Below, piece by piece: positions 1,242 through 61,580 of a DNA stretch of 64,000 nt. This stretch comes from Marchantia polymorpha subsp. ruderalis (lineage: Eukaryota; Streptophyta; Marchantiopsida; Marchantiales; Marchantiaceae), in assembly GCA_037833965.1 (NCBI GenBank), contig AP031358.1, positions 1,372,001-1,436,000 on the forward strand, read 5' to 3'. Made by a program: the position numbers and the translations under genes. Under the pieces are notes generated by a model, which saw nothing but the letters and a program-made list of their open reading frames with translations, did no database searches and was not told where the DNA came from. How positions within the stretch are numbered: the first letter of the stretch is position 1; every line of letters starts with the position of its first letter.

Positions 1242-1249
1242 ACTCCAAG
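1242..1249. repeat. Left target-site duplication of the hAT element
   Basis: ACTCCAAG lies immediately before the terminal CAGGG. The identical 8-mer follows the other end at 8904-8911. Eight-base target duplications are the hallmark of the hAT superfamily. Confidence 0.93.
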
Positions 1250-1294
1250 CAGGGTTTGACACGCATGGCTGAAAGCCATGCGTGTCAAAGCCTG
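1250..1294. repeat. Left terminal inverted repeat, folded in a 45-nt hairpin
   Basis: The left 12-bp terminal repeat is the outer part of a longer local palindrome. TTTGACACGCATGGCT (1255-1270) pairs perfectly with 1274-1289 across a 3-nt loop. After one G/G mismatch, CAGG at 1250-1253 pairs with CCTG at 1291-1294. The right end of the element lacks this hairpin. Confidence 0.85.
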
Positions 1295-1550
1295 AAAGCC
1301 ACCGAGTCACCCTTGGAATACGACACTTTTTGACTTGAATATTTTTTATTCCTCGGGGTCACCCGGATTTGTCCAAAATAAAATTCCGGGGGTCTTCAAA
1401 AGTATTTTATACATGCTGAATCTTTTTTAGTATTATCATAAATATTTGTGAGCAAATGAAATATGGATTTGAAAATCTCAAACTTTATTTTCAACTTGTG
1501 CCCATTCCCAACAACTCAAGGAATTTTTCACCCAGCTCAACACCACTAGG

Positions 1551-4163
1551 TTACTCAACTACAATTGCCTGCACTGGCTCTTCATCATCTTCTGATGAAT
1601 CAGCATCATCGAAAGCATGCTCATCTAGATTATCGTCCTCAACATCTTGATTAAGATCTACGCTGTCACCATCATCTGTGTTCCCATCATAATCAAGGGC
1701 ATTCACAGCTTGGAATAATGATGGCAACTTGAAGTTCTGAGGCTTATGATGATACAGTTCCTCTAGTTGTAAATAATCGAAATTCTCCAAAGACTTCGCC
1801 AAAGTCTTGGTCCGAATGAGTGCATCAATTGTTTTGATACGCAACCTATTTCTAAGCTTGGTTTTAATACTATTGTGCAAAGAAAAACCTCGTTCGGCAA
1901 TGGCACTATTGAGGGGGATGACTAGACAAAGATACACAAATTTAAGCATGTAGCCTAGCTCCAGCCCATGCTCATCATGAATGTTCCTCCAGACAAGAAG
2001 AAACTCTGCATGAGGATCCTTGGCTGCTAACCACAACAGGTGCTTCATCTTCGAAAACTCTTTGTTGACCTGAGACAATACGGACGCATCAATTGGGAAC
2101 AGCTGCTCTCTCTTTGTCCTGTTGCAAAAATGGCTCAACAGAATTTTGTAATCTGAGACACCAAATTTATCAAGCTCTAACTGCTTTAGGCTTCTATAAA
2201 ATGTAGGATCAAAAATTTTGAAGGCACTAAGCACATCTCCATCGGGAAAGCGTTCTAAAAGGTTTGCCTCAATTTCCTCCACCAGCACCTTGATGAACAC
2301 ATGAACGTGTTCCACACTGAAACCAGGATGACCTATCAAAGAAATTCTACAGCTCTCATTGACCTGTCAAATTAGACCCTTTGTGGTCCCATTCTCTTGA
2401 ACAGATTTTAAAAAACTGTTTCAATTTATCACCATCAACCCGATCCTCAGAGCCACATATATCCCTCAGAGCAAATAAACACATCTCAAGTCGACCAGGA
2501 ATTTTATGAGGTAGGTTGTTGTCTTGCTCAAAATATTTTCTAAACTCCTCTAAGGGTTTCAATACATCAGCAACATTATGCAGAAGGCAGATGAAAGTGA
2601 CATCAGTGACAGACTTAAGTAAATCTCCAACTTTCTCCCAACCCTTCTTGCCTGACTTTCTCTTCAAGAACAAAATCAGCGTTGCTAAATTCTCTTGTAA
2701 TGCTGCCACGCACTGAGCTCTGGAAAACCACCTAGTGGCATTGAATAATGGAAATTGTAGTTTGGATACACCTCGCCTCCTAGCAAAGCGTGTCCATTGC
2801 ATTTGACGAGATCCTGATTTGCTGAACAGATTATGCACCGCCTTCAGAACAACGTCCAACTCTTGAAGATCTTCCATTTCCTTGGCTGTGTCTCCAAGGG
2901 CAAGGGCAGTCTTGTGCGCTGCGCAATGGACACTCAAAAGATAACCCACAGTTTTTCGCAACTTTGCGCCCAACCCATTGTATCTACCAATTAGTGTGGA
3001 GTCACCGTCAGTACAAATAGCCGCCATCTTTGATATTGGGATATCAAAGACATTTAACACCGCACATAGCATCTGACACATCCCTTCGGCTGATTTATCA
3101 CCCAAACTAACGGCGCACAAGAACTCCGATCGTGGCATCCAAATATCACCATCCCAGTACCTATTTTATACAATTACCAACAAAACATGATTAATGATTC
3201 ATCAATATTGCCAACTACATTTTAACACAATTTTTTGCAATATTTCTTTGAATGAAGAGAGATCACCTGAGAAATATCAAACAGTGATCCTCGTTGCCGA
3301 TGTCGTTAGAATTGTCTAGTAAGACAGAATAGAAAGAACTAGAAGCTACCCTAGCCAACTGTGATGCTAGAAGGCTTTCACTGATCACCGAAAGGAATGA
3401 CCAAAAGTAACGCTTCTGGTTTTACTTCCGGTTAATGCATGGATGTCCCAACCAAGCAAGGTACCTGCATTGGCACACGGATGAAATTATATCCTTACAT
3501 ACTTCACTAGTCTTGAAAACCAACAATTTTGAATGAAAGTATAACCCACATGATGTAGTGCATGCATTGGAAGGATTTGCCTACTCACCCTAATAAAACA
3601 GCCCATTTTGAAATGAGCAAATTCTCTAAGACAACCAGAAGCGTTAGAGAAAACGCTGTGCAAAAATTTATTTGTTGCCGCTTGTGAATGAGACACAGCT
3701 ATTGCTCTGCTCTTCTTAAACCTGCCGCTTGTGAATGAGACACAGCTATTGCTCTGCTCTTCTTAACCCCTTGCCGTTGCTTTACTTTTGACGCAGCTGC
3801 CTTATGCTTTATCGATGAAGCATGATCGCTTACATAGCCTACATAAAAAACATTAGATCATATTCATATAAAAATTCATACATTATAATATTTATTGCAA
3901 AAAGCAAGTATGAGAAGATTTGGAAAAATATATATACTCACTTGCATCTTTGCAAACAGCGCCGGTCTTGGAGGCAAAGTTATTTGCGGCTTGTGATTCT
4001 GTGCATATAAAGCAGCTTATGAGGGGATGTCCATCTTCTTTCCTGCCTATCAATGTAGCTCATTCATATTTGTCCATCCAACTTTGCACTGTCAAATCAG
4101 AGGCAACATACTTCTTCTTCTTATTGAGAGTTGATGTTGTGGTCTGCTCGCTTGGTTTGTGGT
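1551..4163 (-). pseudogene. hAT transposase gene, multi-exon, broken
   Basis: This gene encoded the hAT transposase that cuts and reinserts the element. On the minus strand I read these exons: 4163-3942, 3838-about 3590, 3464-3267, 3160-2358 and, in a shifted frame, about 2355-1551. Introns have GT/AG ends; 3266-3161 gives the in-phase junction LIFLRYWDGD. The first exon carries a cysteine-pair zinc finger (HPLISCFICTES then VCKD), as in TTF/BED-type hAT proteins. Next is an RNase H-like core (SVLLDNSNDI, ICTDGDSTLIG, CAAHKTALAL). It ends with the hAT dimerisation block (NSAIAERGFSLHNSIKTKLR) and an acidic tail. Breaks are a TGA at 4062-4060 after WMDKYE, a 47-bp tandem duplication in exon two, a TAA at 3424-3422 and a frameshift near 2360. 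The closest family I know is the ZNF862-like hAT group. Confidence 0.88.
3676..3766. repeat. 47-bp tandem duplication inside a transposase exon
   Basis: The 44-base block starting TGCCGCTTGTGAATGAGACA occurs at 3676-3719 and again at 3723-3766, a period of 47 bp. As 47 is not a multiple of three, the second copy shifts the frame. Skipping one copy restores an uninterrupted reading from IAVSHSQAA to TNKFLHSVFS. The copies are identical, so the duplication is recent. Confidence 0.9.
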
Positions 4164-4255
4164 CTGCAAATAGAGTCAAGACTATGTTAATATATGTTTG
4201 GTTAAAAAAAATAACTATGTTGCAAGAAAAACAACTACCAACAGTATTTTCTTAC

Positions 4256-4851
4256 CAGTTGCAGCATAAATTTTGATAGCTGCATCTGCAACGCTGCAAT
4301 CAAAACACAACTGGGTTTGGCCAAGGTCAAGTTGGAATTGATTGGTGATATTTTCAGCAGCAAAAAGATGATGCACTGTCCCAACTGTACATCTCGCACA
4401 TTGCCGAACGGGTAACTCAGGAACTTGACATCCGTTAAAAGCTCGAGCCCAACTGCAAATAAGATGGCTACTGGTTGAAGCACCATCTGTGCTAGGCTTT
4501 GCAGATGCACTATCACCTGCAACAAGCAACAAGATAACATTCAATTCAACATTCATAAAAGTATTATATATAACAAAATTCAATTGAACAAGTCAAATCT
4601 CAACTACAGTCTACTACCTTGCACAAAGTTAGGCTGCTGTGTAGGTTTTGTCAACCCCAAACTTTGTGTCAACCGCTGCTGTACGCCAACAAACTTGCTA
4701 CGTTTCTTTGGTTGTTGTTGTATCAAACTCGATTGTTGTGGAGATATTGCTTTTCGAACAACGGCGGTAAACATCTGCAAGGAGGAGTTATCGATCGCTC
4801 GCCATGAAGGATTGGTTGTTTCATCCATATTGTCAACTGTATGAAAACTGC
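4256..4851 (-). pseudogene. Two exons linking the captured DCP1 exons to the transposase
   Basis: On the minus strand, exon 4851-4618 (acceptor GTGTGCAG, donor CAAG/GTAGTAG) reads through SFHTVDNMDETTNPSW to LTKPTQQPNFVQ. Exon 4516-4256 (acceptor TTGTTGCAG, donor ACTG/GTAAGA) reads GDSASAKPSTDGASTSS to IKIYAATG. Phases fit: exon 5245-5154 ends in phase 1 and splices in frame to 4851, this to 4516, and this to 4163 of the transposase. The residues are S/Q/P/T-rich, like the disordered middle of plant DCP1, so they may be more captured DCP1. They could equally be the native amino end of the transposase. I do not recognise a domain. Confidence 0.55.
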
Positions 4852-5153
4852 CTGCACACTAAGCAATCTGGACACAAATAGATCCATCGTAAAGGACTAT
4901 AAATTTATAGCCAAAGATGATCAAGAAGAGATAAAACTTGGAAGCACCAAAGAGACTCACCAAAGAATACTAACAAACCAGTGATTTCAACATTCTAAAA
5001 TGCAAGATTTCAAATCAAAGTACTGATGAAACGAAACAAATTTTTTCAAAATCATTGATAAACCTGACGCATTAATAATAGACGTAAAAAAATTTGAGGA
5101 AAAAAACCGGCCTCATTCGAGAAGAAAATGAGCACATGTAAAAGATTTTCTAC

Positions 5154-5988
5154 CGAATGCTATTTGTTGAGGTGGGGTTGAAGGCTCCAAAGGCCTATCT
5201 ACAAGAGCAGCTGTAGGAATTGCTTCGAGTCCTTGAAACTCAGAACTGCATGACAAATTTCAAAACGAATAAACCTTAATTAAGTTAAACCAGAACTCCT
5301 CTCTTGGCAGTATTAGTATACTATATACTATACTTCTAGCCAATACACTATTCTCGGGCATATTCCTGCATAAATCTATCTTCAAAAATACAAAGGTTCG
5401 TGAACGAATATTACTCAGCACACATATAAGAGAAGCATCCAAGATCCAGATCTACATAGCTCGGAGCACATCACTGCCATATCAAGCCAAAATATCAATT
5501 TAGAAAACAACATGTACTACAAAAATCAATGCCTACCACGTTGAATGCTTGTTAAGAAAGTTGCGATAGAAAATAACCGCGCGAAAAGTGTATAATTTAG
5601 GCTTCGGCGGTATTTTTGAGAAGGCATTTAGGATCCTACACAAGAAGTGCATAACATTAATCAGCATAGCATTCAAAGTCTTGAACAAGACATCCCCATA
5701 GAAGACACTGCAGTCAACAAAGATTTTCTTTGTCGTCAGGCGGACATTTGCATTGATTAGTATACTTCGACTTATGACTGTAAACATGACCGCACCATTT
5801 GTGTGAAGGTGGATGAGCATAAGAAGTAGAGAAATGACACATAGAGAAGAGCTTTGCAACTTCTTCACACTACCTTGAGTTGTAAAACCAGATGCCATTC
5901 ACTTCTTGGGTGACATTCCGGTACGGCAAATATGGAACTTGCACTTCGTACTCAAAGTCACCAAGAAAATCTTCAACAAGATTTTCTG
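5154..5988 (-). pseudogene. DCP1: Captured DCP1 (mRNA-decapping enzyme subunit 1) exons inside the hAT
   Basis: DCP1 is the EVH1-fold activator of the DCP2 decapping enzyme in cytoplasmic P-bodies. Three minus-strand blocks match plant DCP1 in order. Exon 5988-about 5843 reads ENLVEDFLGDFEYEVQVPYL, then the core PYRNVTQEVNGIWFYNSR, then CEEVAKLF. Exon 5635-5578 reads RILNAFSKIPPKPK. Exon 5245-5154 reads SEFQGLEAIPTAALVDRPLE. Acceptors CTGCTAG, TTGTGTAG and GTCATGCAG precede the blocks, so introns were captured with them, meaning genomic rather than cDNA capture. The amino-terminal EVH1 strands and the carboxy-terminal trimerisation helix were not found. One glutamate codon after FYNSR is a TAG and the first donor is weak, so this is a fragment and not a working DCP1 gene. 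Identification is from remembered family sequence. Confidence 0.86.
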
Positions 5989-7672
5989 CTAGCAGCTTAC
6001 AAAACATCAGTGGACAAGTGGCGAATGGCTATGCATAGTTGAACATGTCAGCTATAATTTCATATGTATGAAACGGCAAGGAAGTTACCTGGAAGGGATT
6101 TGGAATTAAAAATAAAAAAAAATCTGATATTCAAAGCACCTTTGACGTTCCAACGGTTCCAACATGCCCTGTCAACACAAAGAATGTGTTATCAAAAATT
6201 GATATAAAAAACGCAAGGAAGTTGCGCAAAATTCTCTTTGCTTGAGTTACTCTAATTTTGAAATTTCAAATTAAGGGTTTTGATGGGGCAACACAGACTT
6301 CCGAAATACGACGAAAGAAGAAAGAAAACTTGGAAAGTAAGGACGAATATATCATATGTTGCAGGAACAAGCCGGCGTTGAAGAAGCTTAGCCACCAACT
6401 TCCACAAAAAATGGAATCACAACTTCAATCAAAGGTTAGCCACCAACTCTCTGCAGTCAAATATTGTACAAGAGAAACTAGTCAGAGGAGTCGGTAATAC
6501 AATAATCATTCGATTGATTCCGACTTGAAAACTAAAACTAAGAGAGTAAATCATAATATAGAACACATGCAGCTGGTTACGTTTTAGTTTCTGACAAAAA
6601 GCATGACAGTCGGGCTCGTGGACCCAGAGTGTGCATGGAATGACTAATGCAAGCAGTTACTGCGTTCAGAAAAACAATGTACAGAATTATATTGAGACGG
6701 GAACTTTATTTGCTGGTAATAGAGTTTAGAACATACGTGACTTGTAGCACCAAATGTAAAGCTCTGTTCGAATTCGCGGCTAGAGGATTTGAATTGAAGC
6801 TAGGAGTCAGGCATCAATGAGATGTAAGGACGTGAAACGCTACAGATATGTCAAATACCTGGAGTGGAATAACAGGTTGGACTTGAAAATGTAAATCTTC
6901 TGCGAAATAATCCACCCTAAACCACATCAGTCTTTTCAAAGAAGACAAAGTTGTCAACGTATGATACACATTAATCTACCTTTACAATGAGAGGATTGCT
7001 CGGCACTGAGCAGGCTGTACAATCTTGAATCACCACTCGACACCTCATGAAACGATCTTCAGTTCCTACACAGCGTCTCGTACACAGGGAGAGTGCGTAC
7101 GGTTGTGTAAGTCAAAGTGTACTCCCATCCAGCTCATCTAAGTCCATACACTTTTGCAACAAGAGAACATTTATCTTGACTCCTTACATGTCTGCCTAAC
7201 AGTGACATTTCAAATTTCGTTCGGTGTAGTGCACAGAGAAATAACGAAACAGTTTACATTTGAATAAAATATAAGTATTATGCAAACAAAGTAGAAAACA
7301 GTGAAAGTACTTCTGATGGATCAATACAGAGGTGATTGCACAATCCGGCGATCCCAGTTGACAGCCTTTGTTTGAGCAGACTTGGCCTTTCAGCTTGAAC
7401 ACGAAAGGCTATTCGAAGACATTGATGATTACGCATTTTGTCTCGTAAACGTTTTTTAACCTGGACAATTTGTATTCGCTTGATTTTGGATTTGCTCCAA
7501 AATATTCTCACCCACTTGTTTTCACATTTCGAAAACGGATTTCTAAATGAGAAAGAAATTATGAACAATCTATTACTCTCAAGCTAAAGTCAAGGAACAT
7601 ATTGTTTAAGAGTTTAGGGGGCATTGTCCTCTGCAGCAGTTTTTCGCAGCAGTTTATACGATCAGTGGAAGG

Positions 7673-7726
7673 ACAGTAGCCTCAACGGTGGTTAGGCTGA
7701 CAGTAGCCTCAACGGTGGTCAGACTG
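7673..7726. repeat. Two-copy 27-bp tandem repeat
   Basis: ACAGTAGCCTCAACGGTGGT begins both copies, 7673-7699 and 7700-7726. They differ only near their ends (TAGGCTG versus CAGACTG). Confidence 0.85.
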
Positions 7727-7740
7727 ACAGCTAACTATCG

Positions 7741-7944
7741 GTGTCGCCAGACAGAATCGTCGAAATCAGAGAACCCATAGGCTTCGTGATGCACGGTTTC
7801 TGCAGAGTATTAGGTCAACGAGAGGTAGCCATTTCCAGCATGTTCCACGTTCCTGAGACTGGATACAATCTACTAATCTGGATACAATCGAGTGAGAAAA
7901 TCCGAATGTGCACAGGACTTGGAAAAGAAAGCCCTGTGCTGTAA
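7741..7944 (+). mobile_element. Possible Ty1/copia polyprotein scrap inside the hAT
   Basis: A short open stretch contains MFHVPETGYNLL, which resembles the segment just after the protease domain in copia elements (typically a VLHVP..G.NLLS motif). The rest is not convincing. If real, it is a small remnant of an LTR retrotransposon carried within the hAT element, with no repeats of its own. Confidence 0.3.
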
Positions 7945-8590
7945 TTTACTCTGAAATTTAGTGAAGTACATTCGAGAGACATGACCAAAACTGAGAGGAC
8001 CCAGGTCCTTGACCAAGTCACAAGCCCTACGTCTACAAAGCTCTTTTTGTTCTGACAGTTGTCCTCCGTACTTCTTTCTTTGGCCCTGGAACCGAAGTAC
8101 TAGGGCCACTAGTGCCTACGATCCATTGGTACCCATCCATGTGTGTCATGTACGAAGTGAAGAGCTTGGATCACTGAACTGCAGATAATATATGGTCCAA
8201 GATCTCATCTGCTGGGCGAGTTGAGAAAACAATCAAAGAGGTGAATAGGTACCTGAAAAATGTACATTGGAGTCACAGTGATCGTATCCATAGATGTATG
8301 TCGTTCATATGTTTTTGGTGCACATGCCGAACAAGCTGCGACCCGAGAAAAGTTACACGGTGGGTCCCTCCGAAGTATGTGCCCCTGCTGCATCTGCACG
8401 CTCAAGATTTCGTATCTATAGATTGTATCCGTATGCATCAAGAGGTGGGTCCCTCCGAAGTCTGTCACCTCTTACACTCTCTATGCCCCGGCCTCACTCC
8501 CTCGCTCCCGACCAGCGAAAGCAGCACCAAAAATGTAAGAAGCGCACGCAAGCAGGAAAAAAAATTCTTCCCTCTCGTCTCGCTCCCTGC

Positions 8591-8684
8591 CTCTCACCGC
8601 AGCGCTGGGCTATTCGGCTGCCCCAAGAAGTCCCTACCTCTCACCGCATCGCTAGGCTATTCGGCTGTCCCAAGAAGTCTGTGC
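8591..8684. repeat. Two-copy 47-bp tandem repeat
   Basis: CTCTCACCGCAGCGCTGGGC begins the first copy (8591-8637) and CTCTCACCGCATCGCTAGGC the second (8638-8684). Both continue TATTCGGCTG then CCAAGAAGTC. The copies show a few substitutions, so this is older than the 47-bp duplication at 3676. Confidence 0.85.
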
Positions 8685-8891
8685 TACTTTTGCTATGGGT
8701 TTCCACGCAGTACGCCGGTAAAATAATTTTTTTTAGGGTAAAACCTGGGGTCTCCTCGGGTTTACTCTAAAAAGACTCCGGGTGTAACCCCGAGTCTTTT
8801 TAGGGGGTCAGCCGGTTCCTTCCGGTTGTCCCCCTGTTTCTCCTCCTGTCTCGGAAATGATCGGGCTATTCCCGGGGGAATCCCGGGGGAA

Positions 8892-8903
8892 TGTCAAACC
8901 CTG
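8892..8903. repeat. Right terminal inverted repeat of the hAT
   Basis: TGTCAAACCCTG is the exact reverse complement of the left end at 1250-1261. Similarity stops at the thirteenth base. Confidence 0.93.
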
Positions 8904-8911
8904 ACTCCAAG
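8904..8911. repeat. Right target-site duplication of the hAT
   Basis: ACTCCAAG is identical to 1242-1249. Confidence 0.93.
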
Positions 8912-10430: not shown

Positions 10431-11882
10431 CTCTGAAAATAGCGGAGCTCTAAAAATAGCGAACCTTGTCAAGGTTGACGGGAAGGAACTTGCAATACTC
10501 TTTGCACGAGCATGTGCGATCGGCAACGATGAAAGCCTGACTCTACTGATGACAATGATCATGCCACAAGTAGTTGATGTGTCAGATTCCACGATGCGCG
10601 AGATGACGCCAACGACACTAGTGACCGACATCAACAAACAAAAGTTGCTTGTCGTTATGCATGTGAATCTCGCCAAGGACATGCAATCCGACGACACTTG
10701 ATTCTTGGAATTGGCGCTAGCAACCACATCACAAGACACAAGACTGTTTTTGTCGAGCTCAACACCAACATTATTAGACTAGTAAACTTTGGGAACTGAT
10801 TGGTGGTGAACATAAAAGGGACGCATCACAATTTTGTTTGTTTGTCGGAACGGTGAAGACCCCACACTTATTGATATTTACTACATTTTCTAGTTGTGTA
10901 ACATCATCGTAAGCATCAAACAGCTAGACGAGAACAGTTGTCAGATCTTCATCAAGCATGATGATCTTCGACTTTGAGATTGACAGCCACATTTGCTCGC
11001 CAAAGACCAGCCAGCACGAAACAAATTGTACGTTGTCACGTTTGACGTTGTTCAGCCGGTGTGCTTCGCTGGCCGCTTTGGCAACGACGTTTGGAGATGG
11101 TACTAGCGATACGGACACCTAATGTTTTACGCTCTCCGGAAATTGGCAAGTTAAGATATGGTGCGCGGTTTATCGTAGATCAAACACGTCGATTAGTTGT
11201 GCGATAGTTGTTTCATCGGAAAGCAAAGATGCGCATCGTTTTTCCAAGTAGCAAAACAATGTGCAGACAAGCTCTTGGCATGTCCGCACAAATCTTTGTG
11301 CAAACTGATCGCGCCACAAACATCAGATCATCAATGCTACTTCCTTTCCCTTGTAGATGACATGAGCTGCTTTAGGTGGCTTACACTCCTTATCAAGAAG
11401 GATGATATTGCGATAAGACGTTTCAAAGCCAAGATCGATATGCAGAAAGAGCACAAGTTTTTTCTTCTCCGCACAGATCGCGGTGGAGAGTTTACCGCGT
11501 TGACTTTTGCAGCATATTGTGCCAACGAGAGCATTGAGCGATAATTGACTTCTCCTTACTCACCGTAGTAGAACAGAATCATGGAGCTGCTCAATCAGAC
11601 TATTGTCTAGACGGCAATGAGCTTCATGAAGGCGAAGGATGTGTTAGCAAGATTTTAAGAGCAGACGATGAACACTACAGTCTATCTTTTTAACTGTTCG
11701 CTGACTAAGAGCGTCAACACCATGACACCCTACGAGATGTGGCACGGCTAAAAGCATGATATTAGTCATCTTCATGTGTTTGGTTGTGTTCCGCACGTGA
11801 AGTTGATGAAATCGCACCTGGCGAAACTCGATGATTGTTGTAACATCAATGATGTTCCTTGACTACAAGAGAAGATTGATGG

Positions 11883-52100: not shown

Positions 52101-55100
52101 TAGTTCGGAAAGTTCAATTTCGATCAAACCACCCGTTCATTAATATTTATAAAAACCCGCAGAAGCTGTTAGCCCAAAAATCCGCTGCTTCGGCTTTGAA
52201 TCAAGACTGCTGATGGTATTGAATCTAAAACACTCATTGAATCAGCAGTTTGAGCTCAGAAACAGTTTGAGTTTGATTTTTTGATGGAAGTAGCTCAGCC
52301 TACTGAATCATAGTTCACTGAGCTACTTCCATCAAAAAATGAACCCCATTTATACTCATGATAGAATATTCGGCGATGGTTTCCAATCTTTTTCTTCTGA
52401 TTGAGAGACGACCCCAATCGGAACAAGGGCTTCAAGCGCGTCCCAGACAAGGAACACCCTAGGGGAAATGTTCGTGAAAAGTACAGTGATGTGTAATGAC
52501 CCCATCCAGAGTAAGAACATTTAGGCACTATCACTTCAGGGAACCCTGAGAATATTATTCGTGTAAAGGAGAGGGATAAACCCATCCCGAGCGAGGACTT
52601 TCGGCACATCCAACCCAAGGATTTCCTTGGAATCATGCTCGTTTGCTTGAGAGGGATGACCCCATCCGGAAGAAGGTCTTCAGGCACATTCACACAGGAA
52701 ACGTACAGGGAATCATGTTCGTGTAATTGAGAGGGGTATCCCCATCCGGAACAAGGACATCATGCACATACCACGCAAGGAACACCCTGGGAGTAATATT
52801 CGTGCATTTGAGGGGGATGACCCCATCCAGAGCAAGAACTTCAGACACTACCCTTTCAAGGCACACCCCGGAAATAATATTGGTATGATTGGGAGGGATA
52901 ATTCATCCCGAGCGAGGACTTTTGGTATATCCCACACAAGGAACACACTGGGAATCAAGTTCGTGTCATTCAAAGGGATGTCTCCATCCGGTGCGAGGAC
53001 TTCAGGCACATGCCACACAAGGAGCACCCTGGGAGTACTATTCATATAATTGAGAGGGATGATCCCATCCGGAACAAGGACTTCAGGCACTAAAGATTTG
53101 AGGAACACCCTGGGAATAATATTCGTTTGAATTAGAGGGATGAACCCGTCCCGAACAAGGGCTTTAGGCACGTTCCACACAAGAACAACGTTAGAGTCGT
53201 GTTTGTGTGATTGAAAGGGTGACCCTATCCACAACAAGGACTTCAGGCACATCCCACACACGAAACACCCTGGGAGTACTGTTCGTGTAATCGAGAGGGA
53301 TGACCCCATCCCAAGCAGGAACTTCAGGCACTGCCCATTCAAGGAGCGCCCTGAGTACCCTTCTCGTGTGATTTGAGGGATGAACCCATCCCGAGCAGGG
53401 ACTTTTGGTATGTCCCACACAAGGAACAGCGGGGTTCATGTCCGTGTGATTGAAGGGATGACCCCATCCGGAACAAGGACTTCAGGAACATCCCACACAA
53501 GGAACAAAATGGGGATCATACTCGTATGATTGAGAGTGATGACCCCATTTGGTGCAAGGAATTCAGGCACGTCCCACACAAGAAACACACTGTGAATCAT
53601 GTTCGTGTGATTGGAAGGATGACAAAAAAGAGTAAGGACTTTAGGCACATCCCCACAAGGAACAACATGGGAGTCATGTTCGTGTGTATCAGAGGGGTGT
53701 CCCGATCCGGAACAAGGACTTCAGGCTCTTCCACACAGAACAACCTGGGAGTAATGTTCGTGCAATCGAGAGGGATGACCCCATCCAAAGCAGGAACTAT
53801 GGGCACTATCCATTCAAGGAACACCCTGGGAATAATAGTCGTGTGATTGAGAGGTATGAACCCATCCCGAGCAAGGACTTTCGGCACATCCCACACAAGG
53901 AACACAATGGGAATCATGTTCGTGTAATTGAGATGGGTGAACCTATCAGGAACAAGAACTTTAGGCACGCCCCAAACAAGGAGCCAAAAGGAACGCCCTC
54001 CAAATGGAGTTCAAAGATGACCGGGTTGATCTGGAATAAAATTTGAAAGGATAGATTCAAGGTCCAGCGGGGTTAGAAAAAGGTCTTACTTGTGGCTTAC
54101 TCGGTACTTGGTACCTGTCAGATATCTGAGATTGACAAACAATTTCCTGCCACTCAGGTTTCAGAGATGATGCCTCCATCTGCCATCGCTGTGAGACCAA
54201 GGACTATCTTCCTGCCTTTGCTAAGGCCTATACATGAGACAACCGATGTAGCAAGTCTCCCTTGCTTTCTCTGGTCCATACAGCATCCAGCAAAGTTCCG
54301 AGATACCGTTTTAAGTCACAAAGCCTGCAGCTACCTTCTCGTCTTAAATTTGGCACTCTATCTAGGCACTTCAACCAAGGTCACGCCCATACATAAAAAC
54401 ACTAAAACATAAAACACTAAAACATACGGAAGTGTGGAGGATATGAGGCAGCGTTAGACTAATCCCTGGTCAATATCAAGGTATCACTCCCTTTGCAACA
54501 CCACTCTTGGAATCGTGGTATGACTTACTTACGAATGTCCCACTTTACTTCGAGTGCCACCCTTCTATGAGGCGTCCCTAAGCCCATCCCTCCAGACGGT
54601 GTGACATGCTGTTTTCAGATCCAAGAAAATGTAAGGTATATTTACCCTCTGTCTTGCCAGATTATCCTGCTGGATGAAGGTATGATCAACAAAATTGTCC
54701 GGACCCAGCCTGTTTCCACAGATCACAACTTGTACTTTGGTATACTGTAACTTCCTGGTGTCCAAGCCAAGACAGGAACTATCCCGGCTACACTTGAAGT
54801 GTGACATCTTCATATGTATCTTTGTCCTCTCGTTCGTCTTTAGGACAGGTTATTTAAGACATTGATGCCTAGCCACTAGGGGAGGGGAATGACAAGTGCT
54901 CCCCAAATCTCAATATATATATAGTGACTGGTAAGCAGACCATTGTTAGTACTCAGAACACCTCCAATTCAGCAGGTTGATACGTAACTGAAACAACCCA
55001 TCACAATGTCTGGCTGGGAATGAGCGCTGGTACTCCTTGTCCCATTTTACTGTCTTCCTCAAGGGCATCCAGGGTGATGCAAGTACGTCCAAATGACTTT

Positions 55101-58990: not shown

Positions 58991-61372
58991 GCGGACAACT
59001 GAACGCGCCAGCGAGCCAGCGGGGAGCGGAACAGTGAGTGAGAATCGGCCGCGGAGCAGCGGAACAGTAATCGCAACGGGTAAGGCCGCTAAGCAGCGCG
59101 CTTAAGCAGTTAATGGGAGCTTAATTTCGAGTTAACGACCAGCCGGTATTCGTAACGACCCAGCTGTAAATTGAAAATCATTCAAAAATGACGTCGAGTC
59201 AAAACTGTGGCAAGAGTCAATCATGGCCACAGAGCTCCCTTCTTTTGCAAAGAACGCACGTGGCGTGTGGAGCCTAGAGACATGACGCATGACCTGTAGG
59301 CTTCACAACTAAGCAACGCCCTCTGCCACGGCCGCTGCCAGCAGCAGCGTCCGCCCGAGCTGAGCTGACACCCCACCTGGTGATGATTGGGCCGCTTCGG
59401 GCGAGGGGAGCTCCCCGCAGAGTCCTTCTGCGCTCGTTCTGGCGACGCTATGTGTCAGCCCCAGGGCCCCTGTGCATACCAAACCCAGGTCAATGTTTGT
59501 ATCAAATCTGTGGCCGGAAGCTGTGCGTCGCACCTCCCTTCTCTCGTCCCGGATCTTCCGGTTCTCCCGGTTCGTGCCACCAGCTCAATGCAGTGTCCTG
59601 CAGTGCTGTCCGAGCCCCGGGACCTCCTTCGCACTCTCACCAGCGCTCCCACCTTTTCTCAGGCCCCGCTGTGCCCCGAGTCAGTCCCCCACTGGTCTAG
59701 GCTCATCTGCGCTTCGTCGTATCGCATGTTCGCTGCAGTTCCAGGCGGATTGATGTTGGTGTCTTACTCTCGAAGTGTCCGAAGTCTTCACGCCGGGATT
59801 CTGACCTAGAAGAAGACAGGGTATCTCGTGATTGACAGGGTAATTGACCGTGGAGGTTTGTTGCTTTTCGGGAGTTTCATCAAATCTGCATACTGTGAGT
59901 GGTGGGTCGAGTGTGCATCATTGACATGGCACTACATCGTGCAAGGGAGTGAAGGTAGTCAGTGTTTCGCGTGTGTTTGTGTGCGGCAGAGGTGCTTAAA
60001 CCTCAACAATTACACAGAATTTTGACTTTCTTTAACCCCTTTGTGGTCAATTCTTCGCGACTATCTCCTGTCTTGATGCCCGCCTAGGAACAACATTAGA
60101 ACTGAGGAATGCAGTGGTGAGAAGTCGTTTCTACGTGGAGCGCACGGTAGAAAAAGGATCCTCTCGGCGGTCAATTTCATCGTTTGGAGTACAAACCACT
60201 GACGAGGGAGAGGATTTGATGCCTGACGTTGTGAGAAGCCCATTTTTCGTGAACTAAATCAACTGATTGTTTTTTGCGCACAATTGCAAAAGATCAGCAG
60301 GAATCATTACTCTCAAACCATGAAAAAATCCACGTTTCGGTATGAATACTCCTTTGTCACAGCCTCCAGTCAAGCTATCATTTGACTGGACCATGATCAC
60401 ACAATCTTATCATTCAAGTGTCCCGAATGAATTTTGACTGCAGCGGCACTCTCCTTCACTATCGAAGGGGTTGGTTTACGGTCTTGAAAAGAGAAGTTGG
60501 TCGTCTCGGTGCCAGAGCTGTACACTATGATGCTGGGAGGACTTGTGAGCTAAGAAAGAGTGCGGTATTCTTCACTGACTCCCTGGAATTGTCAACGAAG
60601 GGCGCAGTTACAGGAACTGGATCCTCGAGTCCATGACAGTGCATTCATAGGCTCACCCTGACACCCTTTACTTTCATTCTCTTGCACTAAGAATGATGAT
60701 ATTCCCATTGGCAGTATACGACAAGTTACCTACAAACGATCCCTCATCATGTCTGTCGCATCAACTAAAGCATCCACCGCAACGTGAGAATTTCAAATCG
60801 ACGTCTGCCGCTATACTCTGATAAACTGCCTGAAAGCTCGAGAGATATTAGGTCCAGCAGGTTCCTGACAGAGGCAAATGAAAGGCATAGCAACAAATGT
60901 GCGTGGGCGTGCGTGAGTGAGACGAAGGAAAACGACACAGGCCTTGGGAATGGAAAGGAAGGAGCTCAAGACCGATTCCCGGTCAAGGTCTGGAAAAGAG
61001 ACTCTGTCGCTCGACTTCATTCGACCTATAAAATCTTTCCACGGTAGGTGAGCCTTTCTCGAATAAAATGGCTTTATTAGAGGACTTGTGGAGGATGACA
61101 TCAACAAAAATCGGAGAAAGGTTGAGGAAGTCATATCGACTTGCCACCCATGTCGGCTAAGAGCGTAGAAAGCGTAGGTCGAGATCATTTGATCTGGTGA
61201 GAAAAGGAAGGAAGTATAAACAAAGCAAATCGAAAGTCTCTCCAAACTCAAGGTATCTTTTTTACCTACCCAGTTGACTGTAAATATGGATAATTCAACT
61301 GCATTTGTTAAAAAAATGGCCTCATATCATTAGAAGTCACATAGATACCAGATGCTGGGAAACTTGGTGGAT
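58991..61372. other. GC-rich to mixed spacer, no supported gene
   Basis: Open stretches at 59380-59809 (plus, two frames) and 60811-61251 (minus) have no domain and overlap others. The GC-rich part next to 59000 may belong to the promoter of the RING-CH gene. Confidence 0.4.
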
Positions 61373-61580
61373 CAGACTGGGAAAAAAATCACGAATGTCC
61401 AGTTAGCTGAGAACAAGTGGAAAACTCCATGAGTTTCAACATATGAAAGACATCAGACAGAAGCGGCAGTTGTGCTCAGACTGGGAAAAAAATCACGAAT
61501 GTCCAGTTAGCTGAGAACAAGTGGAAAACTCCATGAGTTTCAACATATAAAAGACATCAGACAGAAGCGGCAGTTGTGCT
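61373..61580. repeat. 104-bp tandem duplication
   Basis: CAGACTGGGAAAAAAATCAC begins both copies, 61373-61476 and 61477-61580. I find a single difference (CATATGAAAG versus CATATAAAAG), so the duplication is recent. Confidence 0.93.

Follow-up and report, generated by a model that had tools for sequence, protein, structure and literature searches.

The 64-kb window analysed here, by which we mean the whole stretch of Marchantia polymorpha subsp. ruderalis DNA (contig AP031358.1), holds what appears to be a hAT transposon that encloses, on one strand, the remains of a transposase gene and three exons of the mRNA-decapping gene DCP1. The element occupies positions 1250-8903 (7,654 bp) and is bounded by perfect 12-bp terminal inverted repeats (TIRs) and by an identical 8-bp duplication on either flank. 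Both a target-site duplication of 8 bp (ACTCCAAG on each side) and short TIRs (CAGGGTTTGACA, matching at 12 of 12 positions) are characters of the hAT superfamily, and we take the CAGGG-type start of the repeats to be a further hAT trait. The whole window was scanned for exact end repeats of k bases accompanied by an exact 8-bp duplication, with the two ends 300-15,000 bp apart. At k = 5 this gave 21 pairs, within the range of six shuffles (13-27), and at k = 6 it gave eight. At k = 8, 10 and 12 the pair at 1250 and 8903 stood alone, against a single pair in total from the six shuffles at k = 8. Because this is the only pair at k of 8 or more, the combination of a 12-bp repeat with an 8-bp duplication is very unlikely to be due to chance, and the precise ends claimed in a first-pass annotation of this DNA are exact.

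Past the first 12 bp the left and right ends diverge. The left end folds into a hairpin in which the TIR recurs in inverted form (1283-1294, one mismatch), and no comparable recurrence was found near the right end. Arms of 21 bp with at most one mismatch and a loop of 3-5 nt are found nowhere in the window besides the left end, and arms of 16 bp with loops of 3-10 nt are found at four places, including the right subterminal hairpin. With up to three mismatches allowed, and the true ends counted, there are three copies of the left form and six of the right form within the element, where 30 shuffles gave 3.2 and 4.1 on average; judged against these averages, no older right-end remnant is recognised beyond the copy in the left hairpin. 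Both ends do share a subterminal repeat, CTCGGGGT(TA)CACCCGGA, which lies 103 and 110 nt inside with the same polarity relative to its own end. Its score of 25 was equalled by two of 500 shuffled pairs and by 10 of 487 pairs placed at random elsewhere in the window (500 were drawn and 13 left out as too close together). The common repeat is modest evidence for a single family of ends.

Upstream of the transposase gene, and on the same minus strand, lie three colinear DCP1 exons with their introns, labelled A, B and C in the order of the coding strand. Exon A matches the Pfam family DCP1 (PF06058) with an E-value of 1.3e-10 and 41.7 bits (cut-off 22.5) over profile positions 69-116 of 117, which identifies a Dcp1-like EVH1 domain, but only the last part of it. 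Among known structures the top two of eight matches to exon A are DCP1 (2lyd, E 9.7e-9; 4b6h, E 2.6e-8); the other six are not DCP1 and are all weaker (a designed protein at E 3.4e-5, mitoribosomal mL80 at 0.01-0.3, and others). The exons were also aligned, in one default and one laxer run, with an Arabidopsis-type DCP1 sequence. Exon A matches this protein at 77% over 48 residues (E 3.4e-19; laxer 3e-17), exon C at 62% over 26 residues (E 2.8e-4; laxer 0.002) and exon B at 64% over 14 residues (E 1.0; laxer 3.2). The last of these is not significant alone, and exon B is accepted only because of its place in the exon order. Exon A is securely DCP1; exons B and C are putative DCP1 exons, assigned by colinearity and by their likeness to the Arabidopsis-type protein. 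The first-pass reading of DCP1 exons with introns, on one strand between the ends, is borne out, its peptides all being in place.

The fragment spans only about residues 84-173. Alignment with the Arabidopsis-type protein located neither residues 1-83 nor those beyond about 173 in the element, and the same comparison gave no convincing DCP1 match elsewhere in the window. The next-best matches, proline-rich stretches around 58.3 kb (default run E 0.20, laxer run 0.021), were taken as low-complexity. Under lax settings the first transposase exon aligned with DCP1 residues 177-215 at E 2.7, which we dismissed as chance. Exon A is interrupted by an in-frame TAG at 5872-5870, where the Arabidopsis-type protein has Glu, and the expected splice donor after exon B lacks GT. 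Since the introns are retained, the source of the fragment was genomic DNA. Judged by its sequence, the fragment should not yield a DCP1 protein.

The transposase gene is recognised by its C-terminal part, which matches the Hermes transposase with an E-value of 0.0017 for the whole sequence and 0.014 for the best stretch alone, four of the five matches obtained being to Hermes; the first-pass call of a hAT transposase gene between the ends is supported by this match. The alignment takes in the hAT C-terminal dimerisation region, for which the Pfam family PF05699 (Dimer_Tnp_hAT) gave a match below its curated cut-off (E 0.088) on the open reading frame (ORF) 1551-2366. A match of zf-C17orf113 to the joined transposase protein (E 0.028) is likewise below its curated cut-off. 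LLDNSND, TDGDSTL and AERGFS are candidate catalytic motifs, which may hold the DDE catalytic residues, and of the three AERGFS alone aligns with Hermes. A search for relatives of ORF 2356-3165 gave 19 pattern matches among viral contigs and 71 among the genomes of bacteria and archaea; none was confirmed in either collection, neither of which is meant for plants.

The exon limits and breaks of this gene come from reading the frames by eye. Read in this way, there is an in-frame TGA at 4062-4060, an in-frame TAA at 3424-3422 (given the exon as read), a 47-bp tandem duplication at 3676-3769 (98% alike), which is not a multiple of three and so shifts the frame, and a change of frame around 2369-2356. 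By this reading of frames the gene would be broken in at least three places. The element would be non-autonomous, having no functional transposase, and as remains of the gene persist it is not a minimal Pack element. The multiple breaks had been missed in the first-pass annotation, as had the stop in exon A, the lost donor GT and the limits of the fragment at about residues 84-173.

Features of the element at 1250-8903, in order along the window
Feature	Position	Strand	Basis or remark
Left target-site duplication copy, ACTCCAAG	1242..1249	.	Exact
Left TIR, CAGGGTTTGACA	1250..1261	+	Exact, 12/12
Left-end hairpin	1250..1294	.	45 nt, near-perfect; 21-bp arms, 1 mismatch, 3-nt loop
Left subterminal repeat, CTCGGGGTCACCCGGA	1352..1367	+	
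Decayed hAT transposase gene with introns	1551..4828	-	Exon limits read by eye
NSAIAERGFS	1881..1910	-	Inside the stretch aligned with the Hermes C-terminal region
Putative DCP1 exon C (SEFQGLEAIPTAALVDRPLEP...)	~5154..5245	-	Colinearity and protein alignment
Putative DCP1 exon B (RILNAFSKIPPKPK)	5596..5637	-	Colinearity; weak alone; expected donor without GT
DCP1 exon A (ENLVEDFLGDFEYEVQVPYLPYRN...)	5843..5986	-	Pfam, structure matches and protein alignment; in-frame TAG inside
Stretch of ~2.7 kb without assigned content	5989..8700	.	ORFs scanned with Pfam
Right-end hairpin	8767..8803	.	17 bp; right subterminal repeat inside
Right subterminal repeat, CTCGGGGTTACACCCGGA	8777..8794	-	Polarity relative to its own end as for the left one
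Right TIR, TGTCAAACCCTG	8892..8903	-	Exact inverse of CAGGGTTTGACA
Right target-site duplication copy, ACTCCAAG	8904..8911	.	Exact

For the rest of the interior, Pfam was run on nine of the ten ORFs of at least 70 amino acids between DCP1 and the right end and on ORF 5533-5898, and nothing came above cut-off, the one weak match being to APC_r (E 0.11). Long high-identity inverted repeats were not found inside the element, and there were no tRNA or Rfam matches. The right part of the element holds a 22-bp duplication spaced by 85 (8359-8465, 95%), a 47-bp tandem duplication (8584-8677, 91%) and a 27-bp tandem duplication (7672-7725, 93%). To the right of the element, a weak match to the integrase core PF00665 at 11197-11544 (E 0.0031, below cut-off) is perhaps a remnant of a long terminal repeat retrotransposon. 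Further along the window there is a diverged tandem array of about 1.4 kb at 52543-53982, with an 81-bp unit and a higher period of 242 bp, and a 104-bp unit present twice at 61372-61580 (99% alike) is probably a recent tandem duplication.

Taken together, the locus is very probably a defective transposon of the hAT superfamily that holds a decayed, transduplicated internal fragment of DCP1, with introns kept, beside its own transposase gene. Host-gene fragments between the ends of one element mark a Pack-TYPE or transduplicating hAT, and the DCP1 exons at 5154-5986 within 1250-8903, which may be of host origin, fit this arrangement. Whereas the ends, the duplication, the transposase remains and the DCP1 exons with their lesions can be read directly, the mode of entry is something we infer: the DCP1 segment would have been acquired by the hAT through copying at the DNA level, and the cargo would have decayed afterwards. 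The fragment may have entered when a break or an excision gap within the element was repaired, or two neighbouring ends may have been mobilised together with the DNA between them. The last insertion would have taken place before the breaks arose, or with transposase supplied by another copy. As it stands, the element should make neither a working transposase nor a working DCP1 protein, and the DCP1 piece most likely decays as neutral cargo.

Several observations weigh against this interpretation. The Pfam matches to hAT families are all below curated cut-offs, three of the four transposase ORFs scanned had no Pfam match, and the scan of the joined transposase protein did not return PF05699. 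The subterminal repeat is only modest evidence, as about 2% of random pairs from the window score equally high. One copy alone is seen within the 64-kb window, and the stretch of roughly 2.7 kb without assigned content on the right of DCP1 leaves room for a nested insertion carrying DCP1. The first-pass claim that a hAT had captured DCP1 exons stands as far as the anatomy goes, since matching ends and an 8-bp duplication enclose both the transposase gene and the exons; beyond the anatomy, it is a supposition that the donor was the host's DCP1 gene, that the piece moved by transposition rather than being copied in place, or that DCP1 transcripts are affected.

A special case of the preferred interpretation, rather than one exclusive of it, is that the hAT inserted without DCP1 and that gap filling or template switching then copied the piece into the resident element, where it has stayed without ever transposing. 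We regard this as a serious though tentative possibility. Perfect ends and a perfect duplication around a decayed interior would fit such a history, as would the single copy seen here. A route independent of transposition has been reported for single-copy Pack-TIRs of animals, where 208 of 370 Pack-TIRs are hAT (PMC8277862).

It is unlikely, though worth considering, that DCP1 arrived within the hAT on another, nested mobile element, for instance a Helitron or MULE. The stretch upstream of DCP1 without assigned content would offer space for one, and a scan inside the element for perfect TIRs of 10 bp flanked by 2-5-bp or 8-10-bp duplications, made with no shuffle control, gave nine results. 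One of these, 3500-7968 (duplication CA), spans the three DCP1 exons entirely; another, 5492-6205 (AA or AAA, one pair counted twice), takes in exons A and B but not C. However, the duplications are of just 2, 3 or 5 bp, and a scan of this kind is expected to yield short matches. The only result with 5 bp (5720-5973, CAACA) places its right end, together with the duplication, within the conserved exon A. The lack of long, high-identity inverted repeats inside the element also speaks against a nested carrier, and of Helitron-like 3' ends there are only two weak candidates with 6-bp stems on the minus strand, one (5664) separating exons A and B and the other (2285) within the transposase gene.

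That the DCP1 exons are spliced to a transposase exon to give a chimeric protein, or that a captured promoter is used, seems very improbable. The two genes do lie on the same strand; exon C closes with a phase 1 GT donor, and splicing from it to an AG acceptor (TGTGCAG/GCAG) that shortly precedes the transposase ATG (4828) would keep the frame, as read by eye, which one acceptor in three would do by chance. Against this, exon A contains a stop, the expected donor after exon B is lost, exon C has no ATG while the transposase has its own, and the 5' end of DCP1 was not found in the element. We consider it likewise very improbable that the element is a member of a family carrying the DCP1 fragment whose RNA products, as transcripts or as small RNAs, influence the host DCP1 gene, linking copy number to the balance of mRNA decapping and RNA silencing; because the DCP1 exons have the same sense as the transposase gene, antisense RNA would require a promoter on the opposite strand. 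Finally, that the two ends come from different elements and are flanked by a duplication through chance is scarcely credible, for while they diverge past 12 bp and the second TIR copy, in its hairpin, is confined to the left, they form the sole pair of end repeats with a duplication at k of 8 or more and their subterminal repeats match.

A defective hAT with transduplicated host exons has published counterparts. The closest in anatomy is Hatvine-6, a hAT family of grapevine with a transposase, TIRs and a variable region that often matches host exons and introns (PMC2528002). The element described here has the same combination of hAT transposase, TIRs, exons and introns, but Hatvine-6 comprises several elements with varied cargo and here there is one broken copy with a DCP1 fragment (PMC2528002). 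Pack-hATs are reported in maize and rice, with re-mobilisation of neighbouring insertions as one published route of capture (PMC8903248). They likewise have hAT ends with 8-nt duplications around gene fragments; Pack-TYPE elements are, however, described as non-autonomous, whereas transposase remains persist in the Marchantia element (PMC8903248).

A copy of a housekeeping gene as cargo is also known from the hATs with histone H3 in Pyrenophora and Pseudocercospora, those of Pseudocercospora having 8-bp duplications and a length of about 9.5 kb (PMC6710886). There an intron-less transcript was captured and amplified (PMC6710886), while the Marchantia element retains its cargo's introns and is seen as a single copy. 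In-place gap filling is the other published capture route, described for the animal Pack-TIRs, in which duplicated host sequence likewise lies within hAT ends (208 of 370 being hAT), but these are from animal genomes, have a short element consensus (median 374 bp) and were often filled in place (PMC8277862). The first-pass suggestion of novelty is weakened accordingly, as hATs with captured exons and introns have been published (PMC2528002), and what is left of it is the cargo: no paper combining DCP1 or decapping with hAT capture was found in the open-licence literature searched. The kind of element is already known, and only its DCP1 cargo is unusual. A single broken copy changes no general view, though it is a further clear example in which a hAT rather than a MULE combines its own transposase gene with exons and introns of genomic origin, and a family of such copies could serve to find the breakpoints of capture.

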